Assembly (NCBI GenBank): GCA_015065335.1 | Contig: SVQM01000010.1 | Location: 1-35,265 of the forward strand | DNA from: Oscillospiraceae bacterium | GTDB taxonomy: Bacteria; Bacillota; Clostridia; Oscillospirales; CAG-272 | Length of the DNA: 35,265 nt | Direction of reading: 5' to 3' | Shown here: positions 8,876 through 35,238 of the stretch, piece by piece | How the letters are laid out: each line of letters begins with the position of its first letter | Position numbering within the stretch: the stretch's first letter is position 1 | Notes under the pieces: model-generated | Told to the model about the DNA's origin: nothing | Databases searched by the model: none | The model's input: the letters and a program-made list of their open reading frames with translations, nothing else | Translations under genes and position numbers: made by a program

Positions 8876-9874
8876 TTATATGTTCACCTTACGAATGATT
8901 ATCGCACATCCCAGTGTTGCAACCATTGCAGCAACAACTATAAATGTCACATCTCCTGTGCTTGCGGAATTACCGCCCTGTACTGCACCGGTATTGGTGT
9001 CAGCGGGAGCATCGGTAACGATGATCTCCTCAGTAACCTTATTACCGTCAGCATCTGTAACAGCATTACCCTTGTCATCGGTAACGTCAACTACTTCCTT
9101 ACGGGTAGTGGTCTCAGCAGGCTGAGTGGGAGCAGTAGTCTCCACGGGAGTGGGGGCAGAACCTGTTGAAGGATAAAGATGAGTTGCAGTAGCGACTGTA
9201 ATATCGGTGATATTCAGGTAGTTACCGTCATTCCACATAAAGAAGGGGGAATTGATTGAATCAGCAACGTACATGGAGGTTCCGTCAATATCATAGAGAA
9301 GCTGATCGTCAATGAAGAAACGGACACGGTTCTTCTCTACGGATATACCGAAAGTATAGAATGTGCCGCCCTCGACATCAAGCTCCATAGGAATGGGATC
9401 CCCGAGAAGACCACCCTCGGTGAAACCGGGGAAACCGCCTACAGTTGCGTTGAACTCCTGCTTCTGGATATCGTAGGTGAGGGTTATGAACTCTCTTGCC
9501 TCAGCAGCACCATTAACACGGGGATTATCGTTACAGTATGCGATATTGATAGTTCTGTCATACTCTACAAGTTCATCGTCAGCCATAGAAAGGGTGATGG
9601 ATGCATCATAGGTAAGCCATGTATTGAGAGTATTGTCAAAGATTCCATCGGGATCACTGTACATAGACTGAAGCGCCTTTGCTTCATAGTATCCGTAAAG
9701 AACGCCCTCGACGTCATCAACGTGGAACGCGCCCTCCATAAACTGAGCATAGAACTGATCTTCGGTCATAGTTTTGAAATCAGCTCTGAAAATAACGCCT
9801 GCTGCAGAAGTGTTTACCACAACCATGCTAAGCATCATCACAAGGATAAGCATTACTGAAATAATTCTTTTCAT
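8876..9874 (-). CDS. ConA/LamG-like surface protein 1 with C-terminal anchor
   Basis: Secreted 332-residue protein. The signal peptide (1-24) ends near NTSAAG. A beta-sandwich domain (about 27-225) resembles LamG / DUF1080 concanavalin-like folds, with the signature FGISVEKNRVRFFIDDQLLYDID. A Thr/Pro spacer follows with the repeat VTDDKGNAVTDADGNKVTEE, then NTGAVQGG, STGD, a membrane helix (about 308-326) and a basic tail RKVNI. This end looks like a sortase-type or membrane-retention signal but lacks the LP of LPxTG. It is a paralogue of the genes at 10032, 12203 and 34130. It has its own promoter and terminator. Ligand unknown; glycan binding is inference. Confidence 0.75.
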   Translation of the reverse strand: MKRIISVMLILVMMLSMVVVNTSAAGVIFRADFKTMTEDQFYAQFMEGAFHVDDVEGVLYGYYEAKALQSMYSDPDGIFDNTLNTWLTYDASITLSMADDELVEYDRTINIAYCNDNPRVNGAAEAREFITLTYDIQKQEFNATVGGFPGFTEGGLLGDPIPMELDVEGGTFYTFGISVEKNRVRFFIDDQLLYDIDGTSMYVADSINSPFFMWNDGNYLNITDITVATATHLYPSTGSAPTPVETTAPTQPAETTTRKEVVDVTDDKGNAVTDADGNKVTEEIIVTDAPADTNTGAVQGGNSASTGDVTFIVVAAMVATLGCAIIIRKVNI

Positions 9875-10031: not shown

Positions 10032-11051
10032 TTACTTTACGCTTACCTTACGAACGATAAGAGCACAACCGAGAGTTGCAACCATAGCAGCAACAACGAT
10101 GAATGTTACATCGCCGGTATTGGAGGAGTTACCGCCCTGAACTGCACCGGTATTGGTGTCAGCTACAGGAGGCTCAGTGATGATAACGGTCTCAGTAACC
10201 TTGTTACCCTTGTCATCGGTCACATCGTTACCCTTGTCATCAGTAAGCACTACCTCTGAGATCTTGGTAGTGGTAACACGAGGAGTGGTAGTCTCAGTAG
10301 CATTGGTATTTACAGGAGCCTGAGTCTGAATGGGAGCATCAGGCATCTCAGGATAGAGAGCGCCGTGATCACCAATGGTGATGTTGGAGATCTGGATGAA
10401 GTTACCGTCCTGCCAGAAGAGGAAGGGAGAGGTAATCTCATGAGCGATCAGATACTCATTGTTTGCATCAACAAAGTTGAAGATAAGCTCATCGTTGTAG
10501 AAGCAACGGATGTTACCCTGCTTTACAGAGATACCCATAGTGAAGAAATCCTCACCATCGGTGTTGATCTCCTTAGCAACGGAAGGAAGCATGTTGTGCT
10601 CGTTCTCGTCGGAATCGATATTCCAGCCGGTACCGAAACGGAAGCAACCATTCTGTACATCATAACCGAAGGACATCATAAGTCTGTCCTCCTGACGTCC
10701 CTCGAATACTACGTTATCGTTACAGTAAACGAGGTTTACATATCTGTCAGTCTCGCTGAGCTCGTCATCACCGATAGCAAGAGTAATAGATGCATCATAG
10801 GTGAGCCAAGTGTAAGCGGTGTCGTCGAACCAACCCTGAGAGTCATCATACTGAGTCTGAAGAGCCTTAGCCTCAGCATAACCATAAAGAAGGTTATCCT
10901 CTACATAGAAAGCGCCGGCAATAAACTGAGAGGTGAATACTTCCATGCTCTCAAAGTTCATGTTTACATGAATAGCGGCAGCAGATGTGCTTACGCAAAC
11001 CACGCTAAAGATCATGGTAAGGATAAGCAGTGCGGAAATGATCTTTTTCAT
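10032..11051 (-). CDS. ConA/LamG-like surface protein 2 with C-terminal anchor
   Basis: Secreted 339-residue paralogue of protein 1. The signal peptide MKKIISALLILTMIFSVVCV is followed by a ConA-like domain containing TMGISVKQGNIRCFYNDELIF and SPFLFWQDGNFIQISNI. A Thr-rich spacer with VLTDDKGNDVTDDKGNKVTE leads to ADTNTGAVQGG, NTGD, a membrane helix and the tail RKVSVK. The start is set at 11051 because AAAGGAG at 11061-11067 is 9 nt upstream; an in-frame upstream Met has no signal peptide context. Protein 1 and this copy share an identical stretch TGDVTFIVVAAMVATLGCA at the anchor, pointing to recent duplication or gene conversion of the 3' end. Confidence 0.75.
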   Translation of the reverse strand: MKKIISALLILTMIFSVVCVSTSAAAIHVNMNFESMEVFTSQFIAGAFYVEDNLLYGYAEAKALQTQYDDSQGWFDDTAYTWLTYDASITLAIGDDELSETDRYVNLVYCNDNVVFEGRQEDRLMMSFGYDVQNGCFRFGTGWNIDSDENEHNMLPSVAKEINTDGEDFFTMGISVKQGNIRCFYNDELIFNFVDANNEYLIAHEITSPFLFWQDGNFIQISNITIGDHGALYPEMPDAPIQTQAPVNTNATETTTPRVTTTKISEVVLTDDKGNDVTDDKGNKVTETVIITEPPVADTNTGAVQGGNSSNTGDVTFIVVAAMVATLGCALIVRKVSVK

Positions 11052-11108
11052 TTTCCAAATCTCCTTTGTAATTTTTGCTTGTGCAACCACAAACAGTATT
11101 TCATGTAT

Positions 11109-11137
11109 ATAATACCACACTCAACTGATAATTGCAA
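11109..11137 (-). promoter_or_regulatory. Promoter of ConA-like surface protein 2
   Basis: Reverse strand TTGCAA (11137-11132), 17-nt spacer ending TGTGG, TATTAT (11114-11109). Confidence 0.7.
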
Positions 11138-11271: not shown

Positions 11272-12018
11272 TTACTTAACGTTAACCTTCTTTACAACTA
11301 CAGCTGCGCCAAGAGCAACAACCATGAGTGCAACAACTGCAAACATCATAGTGGTGTTGTCGCCGGTAGCAGGAGCACCGGTAGTATCGGTAGGCTCGGT
11401 TACAGGAGCGTCGGTTGCAGGAGCCTCGGTAGCCTCGGAAGCCTCGGTAGAAACAGGAGCCTCGGAAGCCTCGGTAGAAACAGGAGCCTCGGAAGCCTCG
11501 GTAGAAACAGGAGCCTCGGTAGCAGCAGCAACTACAACAGTGCAATCACCACAAGTAGCGGTAACAGCATCGCCAGCAACGGTAGCAGGCATATTGTCGG
11601 GCTCGAACTCAAGGTCAAGAGCAAACTCTGCACCAGCAGCGAGAGCAGCATCAGCCTTGAAAGTAAGAGTGCAAAGAACGGTGTCGCCTACAGGAAGAGA
11701 AGCAGTACCAGCAACCCAAAGAATCATGTAGGGGTTGGTATCGGTAGTCTCAGAACAGGTGTACATACCCTCATCGGTGTAAACCTTCTTGAAGCTATCA
11801 AGCTTAATTCCTTCGGGAACGGTGAGAAGCAGACCAACCTGAGTTACATCTCCACCCTCGGGAAGGTGAGCAACAACGTCAACGGTGAAGGTGTCAACAC
11901 CCTCAGTTACCTCTGCAGCAACCAGGTTAAAGGAAACTGCATCATCAGCAGAAGCGCCGATGCAAGCGAAGCTTGCGATGAAAGCAAGAACGCAGAGCAC
12001 AGAAAGAATTTTCTTCAT
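11272..12018 (-). CDS. Membrane/wall-anchored protein with one cohesin-like module
   Basis: Candidate anchoring scaffoldin of 248 residues. Signal peptide 1-24; cohesin-like beta-sandwich at about 28-165 (FTVDVVAHLPEGGDVTQVG, then YMILWVAGTASLPVGDTVL and CTLTFKADAALAAG); a spacer with three perfect APVSTEASE repeats (169-195) and more Thr/Pro; then APATGD (215-220), a membrane helix (224-243) and tail KKVNVK. APATGD followed by a helix and Lys residues resembles a variant sortase signal. The module closely matches modules 1 and 2 of the scaffold at 30336, sharing AHLPEGGDVTQVG exactly. Cohesins bind dockerins, so this could tether dockerin proteins at the cell surface. The cohesin call rests on pattern, not on a profile search. 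Confidence 0.72.
   Translation of the reverse strand: MKKILSVLCVLAFIASFACIGASADDAVSFNLVAAEVTEGVDTFTVDVVAHLPEGGDVTQVGLLLTVPEGIKLDSFKKVYTDEGMYTCSETTDTNPYMILWVAGTASLPVGDTVLCTLTFKADAALAAGAEFALDLEFEPDNMPATVAGDAVTATCGDCTVVVAAATEAPVSTEASEAPVSTEASEAPVSTEASEATEAPATDAPVTEPTDTTGAPATGDNTTMMFAVVALMVVALGAAVVVKKVNVK
11434..11514 (-). repeat. Perfect 27-bp tandem repeat, three units
   Basis: Three identical 27-bp units at 11434-11460, 11461-11487 and 11488-11514 encode the APVSTEASE repeats of the anchored cohesin. Perfect in-frame repeats can gain or lose units by slippage, changing spacer length. Confidence 0.97.
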
Positions 12019-12202: not shown

Positions 12203-13189
12203 TTATCTAACATTAACCTTTTTAACTACTACAGCACATCCGAGAACAGCGACCATCACTGCAATAACGATGAACGATGCATCTCCTGTGTTGGTAGAAG
12301 AGCCGCCCTGTACTGCACCGGTATTGGTATCAGCAGCAGGAGCATCGGTAACGATGATCTCCTCGGTAACCTTATTACCGTCAGCATCGGTAACCTCATT
12401 ACCTTCAGCATCGGTAACATTAACTACTTCCTTACGGGTAGTAGTCTCAGTGGACTGAGTGGGAGTATCGGTAACAACAGGAGCAGGTGCGGGAGTCTCA
12501 TTGAAGAGCTGGTAATCTGCGCTTGCAACGATAACATCATCCCATGCAGAGTAGCATGCACTGTTAAGAAGAAGGATAGGAGACTTCTCGGTAGCCGCTA
12601 CATTAGCGGATGCATACTCGAGGATCTTATCTCCGTTCAGGTAGCAAGAGATATTGCCGGGAACGATCTTCCAGCCGAGAGTGAACCAGTCACCACCTAC
12701 CTCAACACCTGATACGGGAGCAGTCATGAGGGGAGCATCAACACCCTCTTCCCAAAGCTCCATCTCCATAGTATCGGCATTCACCCAAACATTGTAAACC
12801 TCGCCAAGCTCAAGGCCGAGCTCGTCAGCATTTGCATAGAAATCATCTCTCCACCAGAGACCTACCTTATGCTCTGCTCTGTCAGAATCAAAATCTCTGA
12901 CCTGAACACGAACCATCATGGAGCAGTTGGTGTACTTACGAGGAATCGGAACATCCTCGGAGAACTCCATCTGGCAAACTCTACCGGGATCGTATGCTAC
13001 GATACAGGGATTGGACTCATCGGTAAAGTCGTCACAGAAGAACTCATTTCCTTCGAGGATCCAGTTGTTGGGATTGGTAAACTTGTCGGAGAAATCCTCA
13101 TGCCAATAGATCTCGCCGGCAGCAGATGTGCTTACAGCAAGTGTAGCAAGCATCATTACGCAAAGGAAAAGTGTAATAAGCTTTTTCAT
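12203..13189 (-). CDS. ConA/LamG-like surface protein 3 with C-terminal anchor
   Basis: Secreted 328-residue member of the same surface family. The signal peptide MKKLITLFLCVMMLATLAVS is followed by a ConA-like domain with WHEDFSDKF near the N-terminus and FTLGWKIVPGNISCYLNGDKIL, the strand pattern seen in LamG / DUF1080 folds. This core is the most divergent of the four. The C-terminal part is nearly the same as in protein 1: ETTTRKEVVNVTDAEGNEVTD, then ADTNTGAVQGG, NTGD, a helix and KKVNVR. GGAGG at 13195-13199 selects the ATG at 13189. The shared tail with a divergent core suggests domain shuffling onto a common anchor. Confidence 0.73.
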   Translation of the reverse strand: MKKLITLFLCVMMLATLAVSTSAAGEIYWHEDFSDKFTNPNNWILEGNEFFCDDFTDESNPCIVAYDPGRVCQMEFSEDVPIPRKYTNCSMMVRVQVRDFDSDRAEHKVGLWWRDDFYANADELGLELGEVYNVWVNADTMEMELWEEGVDAPLMTAPVSGVEVGGDWFTLGWKIVPGNISCYLNGDKILEYASANVAATEKSPILLLNSACYSAWDDVIVASADYQLFNETPAPAPVVTDTPTQSTETTTRKEVVNVTDAEGNEVTDADGNKVTEEIIVTDAPAADTNTGAVQGGSSTNTGDASFIVIAVMVAVLGCAVVVKKVNVR

Positions 13190-13224
13190 GTTAACCTCCA
13201 AAATATATTTTACCGTAAACGGCG

Positions 13225-30247: not shown

Positions 30248-30266
30248 GTATTTTTCCTTATCTCTG

Positions 30267-30295
30267 TTGCGAATCCTGTGTTACTGTGGTACAAT
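30267..30295 (+). promoter_or_regulatory. Promoter of the scaffoldin-like gene
   Basis: TTGCGA (30267-30272), 17-nt spacer ending GTGG, TACAAT (30290-30295). The region from 30251 (TTTTTCCTTATCTCTGTTGC) is repeated at 31961 upstream of the secreted deacetylase. Confidence 0.72.
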
Positions 30296-30335
30296 GTTAT
30301 TAACACATATTGAATATTGATACGGAGGCATTCTC

Positions 30336-31925
30336 ATGAAAAAACTACTCACTCTGTTTCTCACCGTCGCAGTGCTCGTCGGTACGCTTTCTTTCCCCGT
30401 TTCCCACGCGGATGGAATTGTCTACTTCAGCCTTGTTTCCTCCGCTGTACATGAAGGCCAAACCACCTTCACCGTTGATCTCGTTGCTCATCTTCCCGAG
30501 GGTGGTGATGTAACTCAGGTTGGTGTTCTTGTGGATGTTCCCGATGGGCTTAAGCTTGTGAGTTTCAAGGGTGTTTACGCCGGTAATGGTAAGGGTGTGT
30601 TCAGCACTTCTGAGACTTACAATACCAATCCTTACATGGTTCTTTGGGTTCATGGTACCGCTTTTCTCCCGGAGGGTGATACCACACTATGCACTCTGAC
30701 TTTTGAGGCAGACGAGGCTTTCGCCGCAGGTGACAAATATGACATCGGTCTTGAGGTTGAACCCGATAATCGACCGGCTACCGTTGCAGGTGATGAGGTG
30801 GTTGCATATTTTTTCGGTTGCACTGTAGAATACATCGCACCTGTTGAATTTTCTCTTGAGGCAGCGGATGCGAAAAATGGTGACACCACCTTCACCGTTG
30901 ATCTCGTTGCTCATCTTCCCGAGGGTGGTGATGTAACTCAGGTTGGTGTTCTTGTGGATGTTCCCGAGGGGCTCAGGCTTATGAGTTCCCAAAAGGTTTA
31001 CACCAAGGGTATGTACAGCTGTTCTCAGACTACCGATACCAACCCCTATATGATCTGGTGGATTGCCGGTACCGCTTCTCTCCCGGAGGGTGATACCACA
31101 CTATGCACTCTGACTTTTGAGGCAGACGAGGCTTTCGCCGCAGGTGACAAATATGACATCGGTCTTGAGGTTGATCCCGATAATCGACCGGCTACCGTTG
31201 CAGGAAATGCGGTGGTTGCATATTTTTACGGCTGCACTGTGGAGTACACAGGACCAACCCTTAATTTTGCTCTTGAAGCAAAGGATGTAAAGGAAGGCAC
31301 AACATCCTTTGACGTTGATCTCACCGTCACTCTCCCCAAAAATGCGACAGGTTATGAGCTCGGTTACTTCTGCCTTGAGATGAACTATGACAGTTCTGTT
31401 ATGCACCTTGCCGATGCTCCCGAATGGAAGGTTATCGGCGGAAATACTGAAAACTCCGATGAACTTACAGCTATGCCGTACAAATTTGTGTGGATCTCCA
31501 TTGACGAGGAAGAGCAGTTCTCCGCCGGAAAAAACGTGATCGCCACCATGACATTTGAGCTTGCGGAGCCTGCAAAACGAGGCAACAGTTACAGCGTCAG
31601 TCTTGCAGGAAATCAGAAGAATTTTGTGGCTACTATGGCATCGAGCGATGGTAGGTACAAAGAATTCAAATATGGTACAAATGATGTATCCTTCTCAGGT
31701 ATCTCATTTAATGCACTTATCACATACGGTGATGCAAACGGAGATGACAGTGTAACTCTTGCCGATATTTCACTGCTTCTCAAATACGTAGCCGATTGGA
31801 AGGGCATTACTATTGACACGGTAACTGCCGACGTAAACCTTGACGGTGATGTGACACTTGCGGATGCTTCCAGGATCCTCAAGTATATCGCCAAGTGGAG
31901 CGGCATCACACTGGGTGCAAGATAA
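30336..31925 (+). CDS. Scaffoldin-like secreted protein: three cohesin-like modules and a dockerin
   Basis: Secreted 529-residue protein. Signal peptide 1-25; cohesin-like module 1 (about 28-167), module 2 (169-306), a more divergent module 3 (308-458, with YFCLEMNYDSSVMHL and NVIATMTFELAEPAKRG, closest to a textbook cohesin), then a dockerin (463-524). Both calcium loops are canonical: Asp466, Asn468, Asp470, Asp477 and Asp499, Asn501, Asp503, Asp510, each followed by LLKYVADW or ILKYIAKW. Modules 1 and 2 are near-identical to each other and to the anchored module at 11272. Cohesins plus a dockerin in one chain is the plan of an adaptor scaffoldin. GGAGG at 30324-30328 sets the ATG. No enzyme or carbohydrate-binding domain was recognised. 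The fold is assigned by pattern. Confidence 0.78.
   Translation: MKKLLTLFLTVAVLVGTLSFPVSHADGIVYFSLVSSAVHEGQTTFTVDLVAHLPEGGDVTQVGVLVDVPDGLKLVSFKGVYAGNGKGVFSTSETYNTNPYMVLWVHGTAFLPEGDTTLCTLTFEADEAFAAGDKYDIGLEVEPDNRPATVAGDEVVAYFFGCTVEYIAPVEFSLEAADAKNGDTTFTVDLVAHLPEGGDVTQVGVLVDVPEGLRLMSSQKVYTKGMYSCSQTTDTNPYMIWWIAGTASLPEGDTTLCTLTFEADEAFAAGDKYDIGLEVDPDNRPATVAGNAVVAYFYGCTVEYTGPTLNFALEAKDVKEGTTSFDVDLTVTLPKNATGYELGYFCLEMNYDSSVMHLADAPEWKVIGGNTENSDELTAMPYKFVWISIDEEEQFSAGKNVIATMTFELAEPAKRGNSYSVSLAGNQKNFVATMASSDGRYKEFKYGTNDVSFSGISFNALITYGDANGDDSVTLADISLLLKYVADWKGITIDTVTADVNLDGDVTLADASRILKYIAKWSGITLGAR
30462..31204 (+). repeat. Tandem duplication within the scaffold gene
   Basis: 30462-30544 equals 30885-30967 over 83 bp (offset 423). 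30665-30760 equals 31079-31174 over 96 bp (offset 414), followed after one mismatch by 29 more identical bases (30762-30790 and 31176-31204). The change in offset is a 3-codon difference between the modules. Confidence 0.92.
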
Positions 31926-31930
31926 ACGCC

Positions 31931-31963
31931 AAAAAGTCATTGTGAAATTCACAATGACTTTTT
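31931..31963 (+). terminator. Terminator of the scaffold gene
   Basis: AAAAAGTCATTGTGAA and TTCACAATGACTTTTT form a perfect 16-bp inverted repeat, 5 nt past the stop codon. Confidence 0.9.
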
Positions 31964-31974
31964 CCTTATCTCTG

Positions 31975-32003
31975 TTGCAGATCTTGTTTCAATATGGTAC
32001 AAT
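31975..32003 (+). promoter_or_regulatory. Promoter of the secreted deacetylase gene
   Basis: TTGCAG (31975-31980), 17-nt spacer ending ATGG, TACAAT (31998-32003). It resembles the promoter at 30267-30295 over the whole region. Confidence 0.72.
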
Positions 32004-32038
32004 ATTATTACAAGATTCGACAATAACGGAGATATATT

Positions 32039-33088
32039 TTGAAAAGAATAATTTGCCTTATTGCGGTAATGTTTCTTATGGTATTTGCGGGCGGCTCGAC
32101 CGCCACGGTGCAAAGCTCGGATAACGAAGCCTCTGTATCTTCCACAGAGACTACCATACCCGAATCACCGGCATTACCGACCGACACCGAAGCCATGACC
32201 GATATCACGACTGAGATCACAACAGAGCCACCCATCCTAACGGAAATAATCACTGATACGGAGACTGTCATGAGCACAGAAACATCCACCGTTCCTGCTG
32301 ACAATGAAACAGCACCTCCCCCTGTTACCGAGCCGCCCGTCACCGAAGCTCCCGTGACGGAGCCGCCCGTAACGGAACCAACACCATCTGTAGACGAGGT
32401 CATCTCATGGTATTTCGGGCCGCAGCTTCCCGTGAGTGATATAACTACCATCCCTCTCGCCAAAAATCCGTCCATCGATCCTGCAAAGCCCATGCTTGCG
32501 CTGACCTTCGACGACGGTCCCAGCGCACATACAGAAAGACTTCTTAACATATTCAAGGCACACGGCGGTAAAGGCACATTCTTTGTAGTCGGCAACTCCA
32601 TCGGCGGAAAAGAGGCTACTCTTTCGAGAATGGCCGCTGAGGGACACGAGATCGGTATACATACGTGGTGGCATCCTCAGCTCACCACTCTCACGGATGT
32701 GGCGATCGTTGATGAGATCCTCATGACCAGAGCGAAGATCTACTCAGCTACGGGAGTTGACACCCGCATCGTCAGACCTCCCTACGGAGCGATCGATGAC
32801 AGAGTTAAAGCCATCGGTGCAAAAACCGGTGTATGCTTTGTAAACTGGTCGGTGGATACGGTAGACTGGAGAACGAGAAATGCCACTGCTGTTTACAACG
32901 AAGTGATGAACGGAGCAAGAAACGGTGCCATAATCCTATGTCACGATCTTCACGGCTCTACTGTCGATGCTATGGAAACAGTTATCCCAAAGCTCATTGC
33001 CGACGGATACCAGCTTGTCACAGTATCTGAGCTTCTGTCGTATTCCAACACTTATCTTGTGCCCGGCGGACTGTATAACAGACAGTAA
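32039..33088 (+). CDS. Secreted polysaccharide deacetylase (NodB domain)
   Basis: Extracellular carbohydrate esterase 4 enzyme of 349 residues, likely acting on peptidoglycan or another acetylated glycan. Signal peptide 1-20; a long Thr/Glu/Pro spacer (22-118) with repeated VTEPP and VTEAP; NodB domain (about 150-335) with LTFDDGPS (155-162), HTWWH (208-212, HxxxH metal site), RPPYG (246-250), the VDTVDW strand and ILCHDLH with His302. A TTG start is set by GGAG at 32028-32031. Unlike the dockerin clients it has no dockerin or C-terminal anchor, so it may be released. It shares promoter sequence with the scaffold gene. Confidence 0.92.
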   Translation: MKRIICLIAVMFLMVFAGGSTATVQSSDNEASVSSTETTIPESPALPTDTEAMTDITTEITTEPPILTEIITDTETVMSTETSTVPADNETAPPPVTEPPVTEAPVTEPPVTEPTPSVDEVISWYFGPQLPVSDITTIPLAKNPSIDPAKPMLALTFDDGPSAHTERLLNIFKAHGGKGTFFVVGNSIGGKEATLSRMAAEGHEIGIHTWWHPQLTTLTDVAIVDEILMTRAKIYSATGVDTRIVRPPYGAIDDRVKAIGAKTGVCFVNWSVDTVDWRTRNATAVYNEVMNGARNGAIILCHDLHGSTVDAMETVIPKLIADGYQLVTVSELLSYSNTYLVPGGLYNRQ

Positions 33089-34129: not shown

Positions 34130-35113
34130 TTATGCGTTCACCTTACGAACGATAAGAGCACATCCGATAGCTGCAACCATTGCAGCAACAACAACGAACA
34201 CACTGTCACCGGTGTTGGTAGAGTTACCACCCTGTACTGCGCCTGTATTGGTGTCAGCTACGGGAGGCTCGGTAATGATAACAGTCTCGGTTACTTTGTT
34301 ACCGGAATCATCGGTCATGGTGTTGCCCTTGTCATCGGTTACATCAACGATAGAGGTTGCGGTTGTTGTAACTCTGGGTGTAGTAGTCTCGGTAGCAGAG
34401 GTATCGGTAGGTGTAGTATTATCAGCTACAGGAGTCATAGGATACAGGAATTCGGGAGTTGCGATCTTTACATCCTTGATTTGGATGAAGTTACCGTCAT
34501 TCCAATATACGAGAGCGGTAGGTACAGTATTCTCATCCTCAATACCGATAAGGTACTCATCAGCAGTATCAACATAATCGATCAAGAGCTTGTTGTCGAT
34601 GAAGCAACGGATACGTCCTCTTGTTACGGACATACCTAAGGAATAGAACTCGGATCCGTCATCTGCGATTCCCTCATAGGAAACAGGTCCAACGATAAGC
34701 TCTTCCTTGTCACAACCAACTCCGCCACCGGTGAGATAGAAACTTTTTTCCTCAACAACGTAACTGAAGCTCATGTAGTATGAACCATCTGCACGGCCGT
34801 AATTTAAAAGGTTGGTGTTGGGATAAACGACAGAAAAAGCTCTTTCAGTTTCGCTCATCTCATCATCAGCAAAGGCAGCTTCAATACAAGTATCATAGAT
34901 AAACCACTCACCCTTGGTCTGGAGACATTTAGCCTCATTGTATCCAAAAAGAAGGTTTTCATCGGTATAGAAAGCACCTGCGTGGAAGTTTGCGGTAAAT
35001 CTCTCCATATCAGAAAAATCAGACTGAACGAGGATTCCCGCAGCGGATGAGCTTACAGCAAAAACGCTGAGCATCATGGTAAGGATCACGAAAAAGGAAA
35101 CGATTTTTTTCAT
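34130..35113 (-). CDS. ConA/LamG-like surface protein 4 with C-terminal anchor
   Basis: Secreted 327-residue paralogue of the three proteins at 8876-13189, 21 kb away. Signal peptide MKKIVSFFVILTMMLSVFAV; ConA-like domain with YSLGMSVTRGRIRCFIDNKLLIDYVD and LVYWNDGNFIQIKDV; spacer with VDVTDDKGNTMTDDSGNKVTE; NTGAVQGG, NTGD, a helix and tail RKVNA. It is closest to protein 2 in the spacer (TETTTPRVTTT). The start at 35113 is set by AAAAGGAG at 35122-35129; upstream in-frame codons encode no signal peptide. The separate location suggests the family spread by duplication to both scaffold loci. Confidence 0.75.
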   Translation of the reverse strand: MKKIVSFFVILTMMLSVFAVSSSAAGILVQSDFSDMERFTANFHAGAFYTDENLLFGYNEAKCLQTKGEWFIYDTCIEAAFADDEMSETERAFSVVYPNTNLLNYGRADGSYYMSFSYVVEEKSFYLTGGGVGCDKEELIVGPVSYEGIADDGSEFYSLGMSVTRGRIRCFIDNKLLIDYVDTADEYLIGIEDENTVPTALVYWNDGNFIQIKDVKIATPEFLYPMTPVADNTTPTDTSATETTTPRVTTTATSIVDVTDDKGNTMTDDSGNKVTETVIITEPPVADTNTGAVQGGNSTNTGDSVFVVVAAMVAAIGCALIVRKVNA

Positions 35114-35161
35114 TTTTTTTACTCCTTTTATGTGTTTCCGTATTGTAAAGTTAAATGAAAG

Positions 35162-35191
35162 TTGAGAACCTGTCAATCCATATGGTACAAT
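35162..35191 (+). promoter_or_regulatory. Promoter for the gene leaving the right edge
   Basis: TTGAGA (35162-35167), 18-nt spacer ending ATGG, TACAAT (35186-35191): the same TGGTACAAT -10 as the scaffold and deacetylase promoters. Confidence 0.6.
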
Positions 35192-35238
35192 AGTTTCACC
35201 ACAAAACACAAGTACTCCGAAATGGAAGAAAGGTTCTC

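Follow-up and report, generated by a model that had tools for sequence, protein, structure and literature searches.

A gene in the window, by which we mean the whole 35,265-nucleotide stretch of DNA that was analyzed (contig SVQM01000010.1 of an Oscillospiraceae bacterium), appears to encode a small secreted scaffoldin of a gut Clostridia bacterium with the module order cohesin A - cohesin A' - cohesin C - dockerin (Table 1). Its two A-type modules, M1 and M2, form a mosaic of identical and diverged segments. We consider it probable, if well short of certain, that the product is such a scaffoldin and that an older duplication of the A module was followed by gene conversion over two tracts; the order of events and the mechanism are deduced from one genome. 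This reading is built on what was seen directly: the exact runs, synonymous divergence that rises abruptly, a dockerin, a modelled cohesin fold for M2 and a paralogue in the same genome.

The 529-residue protein combines at least two cohesins with a secretion signal and, in a Pfam scan, has no catalytic domain, as a scaffoldin should; M2 was assigned by its fold, M1 by its amino acid identity to M2 (75%), M3 by profile, and the signal peptide by eye. The C-terminal dockerin scored 36 bits against PF00404 (cut-off 22.9) and would serve for attachment to another cohesin. The AlphaFold2 model of M2, built from 19 related sequences, is a predicted nine-strand jelly-roll whose nearest structures are cohesins: in a Foldseek search with it ranks 1-34 were all cohesin entries (best E 3e-7), and comparison to 2xdh (VIA) gave Z 15.4 with an rmsd of 2.2 over 125 residues and to 6kgc (VIA) Z 15.3 with an rmsd of 2.6 over 133 residues. 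The fold was assessed for M2 only; the model of the full-length protein was too uneven (mean pLDDT 74, dockerin mostly below 50) to be used for M1 and M3. The matches of the M2 model and the dockerin together bear out the labels "cohesin-like" and "scaffold" that had been given to this gene from its letters.

The Pfam cohesin profile PF00963 found no match in M1 or M2 and only a sub-threshold one in M3; it was matched by 10 of the 19 members of the alignment behind the M2 model. The A1 profile alone did not reach the cohesins of the PDB by sequence; the wider profile A3, which takes in more distant relatives including some Pfam cohesins, does reach them. It has been reported that divergent cohesins in ruminococci escape sequence profiles and are revealed by AlphaFold2 (PMC11557425). 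M3 shares about 25% protein identity with M2, in keeping with the original prediction that the third module is far more divergent. By the A1 profile M3 is a distant relative of M1 and M2. The last module of a paralogue on another contig (the C143 paralogue) shares 55% identity with it, so that by sequence M3 is a separate cohesin subtype, not merely a more diverged copy from the same duplication.

Table 1. Features of the scaffoldin-like gene, its A modules and the anchored module S1 (positions in the window)
Feature	Coordinates	Strand	Description or basis
Scaffoldin-like gene, 529 aa	30336..31925	+	signal peptide, cohesin-like M1, M2, M3, C-terminal type I dockerin
Probable signal peptide, aa 1-26	30336..30413	+	by-eye reading of the sequence: MKKLLTLFLTVAVLVGTLSFPVSHAD
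M1, A-type cohesin-like, aa 27-167	30414..30836	+	A1 profile E 5e-67 (profile includes M1 itself)
M2, A-type cohesin-like, aa 168-306	30837..31253	+	AlphaFold2 model pLDDT 94.6, cohesin fold
M3, distinct C-type cohesin-like, aa 307-456	31254..31703	+	PF00963 19.1 bits (cut-off 24.1); A1 profile E 1.1e-9
Type I dockerin, aa 464-518	31725..31889	+	recognition residues LA/LA, "IAKW" class; PF00404
Promoter-like TTGCGA-17-TACAAT	30267..30295	+	promoter-like site count in region not above shuffles
Shine-Dalgarno-like GGAGG	30324-30328	+	sequence, 5' of the scaffoldin gene
Terminator-like hairpin, 15 pairs	31931..31963	+	3' of the scaffoldin gene
Run A in M1, 83 bp	30462..30544	+	strands 2-3
Run A in M2	30885..30967	+	exact repeat
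Divergent middle of M1, strands 4-6	30545..30664	+	79/111 aligned nt same as M2; 3 codons longer
Divergent middle of M2, strands 4-6	30968..31078	+	alignment and model
Run B in M1	30665..30790	+	strands 7-8
Run B in M2	31079..31204	+	exact repeat and one mismatch
S1, secreted single A-type cohesin-like module, LPXTG-type wall anchor	11272..12018	-	TIGR01167 19.2 bits (cut-off 15.9)

A 52-bp direct repeat with 85% identity (30251-30302 and 31959-32010) has one copy immediately upstream of the scaffoldin gene and the other immediately upstream of a polysaccharide deacetylase gene (32039-33088). Each copy contains TTGC..-17-TACAAT, and a genome-wide search found nothing further except a 21-bp match; the repeat may be a shared promoter or a relic of duplication.

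The exact runs of 83 and 96 bp that had been noted between the first two modules were recovered, at the same positions, as maximal exact repeats and are the two longest in the whole window. Run B consists of the 96-bp core (30665-30760 and 31079-31174), a single mismatch and a further 29 exact base pairs (30762-30790 and 31176-31204), or 125 of 126 in all; one other exact repeat of 17 bp was found. The offsets of the two runs, 423 and 414 bp, are both in frame within one ORF, with a 3-codon indel between the runs. Across 105 other loci of this genome, exact direct repeats reached 86, 72 and 68 bp at the longest, leaving 96 bp as the longest seen. Several of the long repeats in those loci sit in dockerin genes or repeat-bearing surface-protein genes, which makes long runs a common feature of this gene class. 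The 86-bp repeat, with a 117-bp period, lies in a dockerin gene on contig C79 (locus L138, near 1990-2193), and the same period recurs in L125, L127 and L012 (C140), which have cysteine-rich repeats.

Synonymous divergence between M1 and M2 is strongly uneven. The NG86 dS was 0 in run A and in run B, 0.43 in the middle segment and 0.32 beyond 30761; it reached about 1.5 in the N-terminal 16 codons, where 11 of the 16 residues differ. Each segment offers few synonymous sites (11 to 25). None of the 46 synonymous sites in the runs differed and about 20 of the 54 outside them did (Fisher p = 1e-6), and the runs set against the middle segment alone gave p 8e-5; the 95% upper bound on synonymous difference inside the runs is 6%. 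A Sawyer-type runs test on all polymorphic sites of M1 and M2 returned p = 5e-5. When same-residue codons of these two modules only were considered, runs of 28 and 43 identical codons were found (p 0.01 by longest run, 0.002 by sum of squares), and the test was weaker on the 41 codons silent in all four modules (p 0.06 and 0.02). Abruptly bordered tracts of synonymous identity in otherwise diverged copies, the mark of gene conversion, were observed here. Codon bias and chance were excluded as the cause of the runs by the 58 of 58 same-residue degenerate codons that are identical within them, for which independent draws would give ~1e-13 to 1e-22. Codon constraint is no explanation, because other A modules have in common with M1 only 53 of 85 (S1) and 30 of 70 (PA) same-residue codons. 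The original prediction had described identity also at synonymous sites, which is correct inside the runs and incorrect between them and at the N-terminus; the strong synonymous divergence that it had named as the finding that would speak against it extends over about half of the module.

The simplest reading of this mosaic is two conversion tracts in an older pair, and partial copying between old duplicates is an ordinary kind of event. An A module of the scaffoldin gene would have been duplicated, and 30462-30544 and 30665-30790, each with its copy, would later have been made identical by intragenic gene conversion, in which misaligned copies recombine either within one chromosome or between sister chromosomes. 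The segment between the tracts, with strands 4-6, loops and the 3-codon indel, would have escaped. The C143 paralogue, with the order A - C - dockerin and a single A module, argues for such an older duplication in the A - A' - C - dockerin gene of the window. Quartet patterns in the middle segment (M1+M2 4, M2+S1 1, M1+S1 2) also lean towards M1 and M2 as sisters from an older duplication, on few sites.

The rival to older duplication and conversion is replacement in a recent pair: the body of the A module would have been duplicated recently, and the N-terminal 16 codons, the middle and the C-terminal end of one copy would then have been exchanged by recombination with other cohesin genes. We regard this as unlikely, although it accounts for a dS of 0 in the runs and would leave the same pattern as conversion tracts; the alignment also shows a 22-nt stretch common to S1 and M2 in the middle, which speaks for it. 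Against it, three replacements are required and no donor for the middle was found, and import of the middle from the S1 gene was rejected since the quartets give it no support. The N-terminus of M2 is slightly closer to M3 (29/48 nt) than to M1 (22/48), as after an unequal crossover between A and C modules, but this difference is within noise and too weak to support a claim that M2 is a hybrid which took its N-terminus from an M3-type module. A single recent tandem duplication of the whole module, as the title of the original prediction had it, would suit the in-frame tandem arrangement, the overall protein identity and the long exact runs. Synonymous divergence is not uniformly low along the unit, and the diverged N-terminal residues, the indel and the synonymous differences outside the runs make this very improbable; because that divergence is uneven, a single recent whole-module copy is untenable unless the contig is chimeric. 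Of the two origins originally offered, recent duplication or gene conversion, partial conversion fits and recent duplication of a whole module does not.

Such a chimera, in which the mosaic or the number of modules would stem from a strain mixture or from misjoined short reads, is improbable as well. The assembly is a fragmented MAG (155 contigs, 75% complete, 3.7% contamination) that could contain a strain mixture, and distorted cohesin counts are a known problem of draft assemblies (PMC5748583). On the other side, each copy has its own flanks and stays in frame, and no near-identical gene fragment was found on another contig. Repeats of 83 and 96 bp are also shorter than the largest k-mers in common assembler use. 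Variation in module number between strains is plausible, given that the C143 paralogue carries a single A-type module where the window gene carries two. A search of relatives with a 460-aa query gave, its own genome aside, no hit at E 1e-10, and the A1 profile found only distant cohesins, in 6 other family genomes among the 395 searched and in 2 of the 27 genomes that were nearest by LepA. The closest relatives by LepA are uncultured Clostridia, and many at the top of that ranking come from herbivore gut or rumen. Searches of a genome contig collection and of viral contigs for relatives of the gene returned nothing, and literature searches on gene conversion in cohesins yielded nothing relevant.

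When mapped onto the M2 model, run A corresponds to strands 2-3 and run B to strands 7-8, with the diverged middle in strands 4-6. M1 and M2 are 100% identical in each of strands 2, 3, 7 and 8 and share 3/8 residues in strand 4, 1/4 in strand 5 and 3/6 in strand 6. In Ruminococcus flavefaciens cohesins the dockerin-binding face is the sheet 8-3-6-5 (PMC5429695); with strands taken in order, M1 and M2 are identical over half of the expected face and differ in the other half. The changes in strands 5 and 6 are mostly mild (V/M, F/Y, V/I), with L74W as the main exception, and on the model a shift in dockerin preference between the two modules is possible. Repeated cohesins are the load-bearing parts of scaffoldins, and the partners that a scaffold can hold depend on how these repeats remain similar or diverge; here is a concrete case in which homogenized and diverged module parts map to different parts of a predicted binding face. 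A more speculative idea, which we think doubtful, is a copy-and-retain process in a non-cellulosomal surface scaffold: segmental gene conversion would keep the frame and face strands 3 and 8 identical while strands 4-6 diverge, and neighboring cohesins would thereby gain different dockerin preferences.

The window also encodes S1, which is 63-66% identical to M1 and M2 and by sequence is a candidate anchoring partner of the scaffoldin. M1-M3 would bind dockerins of the many dockerin-bearing surface proteins of the genome, and wall-anchored S1 may tether such complexes to the wall; five sortase matches in the genome, four of them over the cut-off, fit wall anchoring. The S1 linker (11431-11519) has a 27-bp tandem unit that gives a 62-bp exact overlapping repeat, and its length may vary. 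Four minus-strand genes (8876-9874, 10032-11120, 12203-13201 and 34130-35209) encode related secreted proteins with an "ADTNTGAVQGG..NTGD" tail, a hydrophobic stretch and a basic end. The product of 34130-35209, the one of the four that was scanned, had no Pfam match; a domain similar to that of these proteins adjoins cohesin-like modules on contigs C140 and C11.

The genome (G000, 2.16 Mb; loci L116-L205) has about 97 dockerin matches. By pattern, ~75 fall into a class with N-L-x-D-like loops and a closing I-A-K-W and ~20 into a class with N-S/A-x-D loops and R-R-K-L-A-G. The dockerin of the scaffoldin belongs to the larger class, so the same cohesins could in principle bind both their own and other dockerins. 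Among the matches listed for 58 dockerin ORFs, some of which are cut at a locus edge, the commonest recognized partner was the BspA-type LRR (LRR_5, 17), with single matches to Ig-like, FN3, CUB, lectin, GH25 and GH26 domains, and none of the 25 listed is a cellulase family. GH9 was not found in this 75% complete genome in searches with working controls; a search for GH48 gave no match, but its control was silent too. With many dockerins on leucine-rich-repeat or Ig-like surface proteins and no GH9 found, a non-cellulosomal surface network is likely from the domain content; ORFs cut at locus edges and the missing quarter of the genome leave this short of proof. The genome is an example of a large gut cohesin-dockerin system with LRR proteins as the commonest recognized partners and no cellulase found, and its probably non-cellulosomal dockerin repertoire merits a study of its own.

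Several known systems resemble this one. Like R. flavefaciens ScaA and ScaB, the scaffoldin is a single secreted protein in which several cohesins that differ from one another precede a C-terminal dockerin. In R. flavefaciens the number of cohesins varies with the strain, ScaB having 7 in strain 17 and 9 in FD-1 (PMC4081043). Here there are three modules of two subtypes, about 13-15% identical to the solved R. flavefaciens ScaB and ScaC cohesins; the dockerin is of the class that prevails in the genome, and cellulase partners were not found. S1, with a single cohesin-like module and an LPXTG-type anchor, recalls the sortase-anchored single cohesin ScaE of R. flavefaciens, but it is of the A type, close to M1 and M2 and not clearly a separate cohesin type, and its binding is putative. 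Lachnoclostridium sp. MSJ-17, described as scaffoldin-containing and presumably non-cellulolytic (PMC11557425), likewise has single-cohesin membrane-linked proteins, a small scaffoldin of cohesins and dockerin, dockerin proteins numbering in the tens and hardly any plant-wall enzymes. Its one scaffoldin has two cohesins and an N-terminal dockerin, and it has 39 dockerin proteins, compared to three cohesins, a C-terminal dockerin and the far larger dockerin count here. The amylosome of Ruminococcus bromii is also a gut cohesin-dockerin system that is not a cellulosome and has sortase-anchored scaffoldins (PMC9112005); its partners are starch enzymes and starch-binding proteins, whereas LRR surface proteins are the commonest recognized here.
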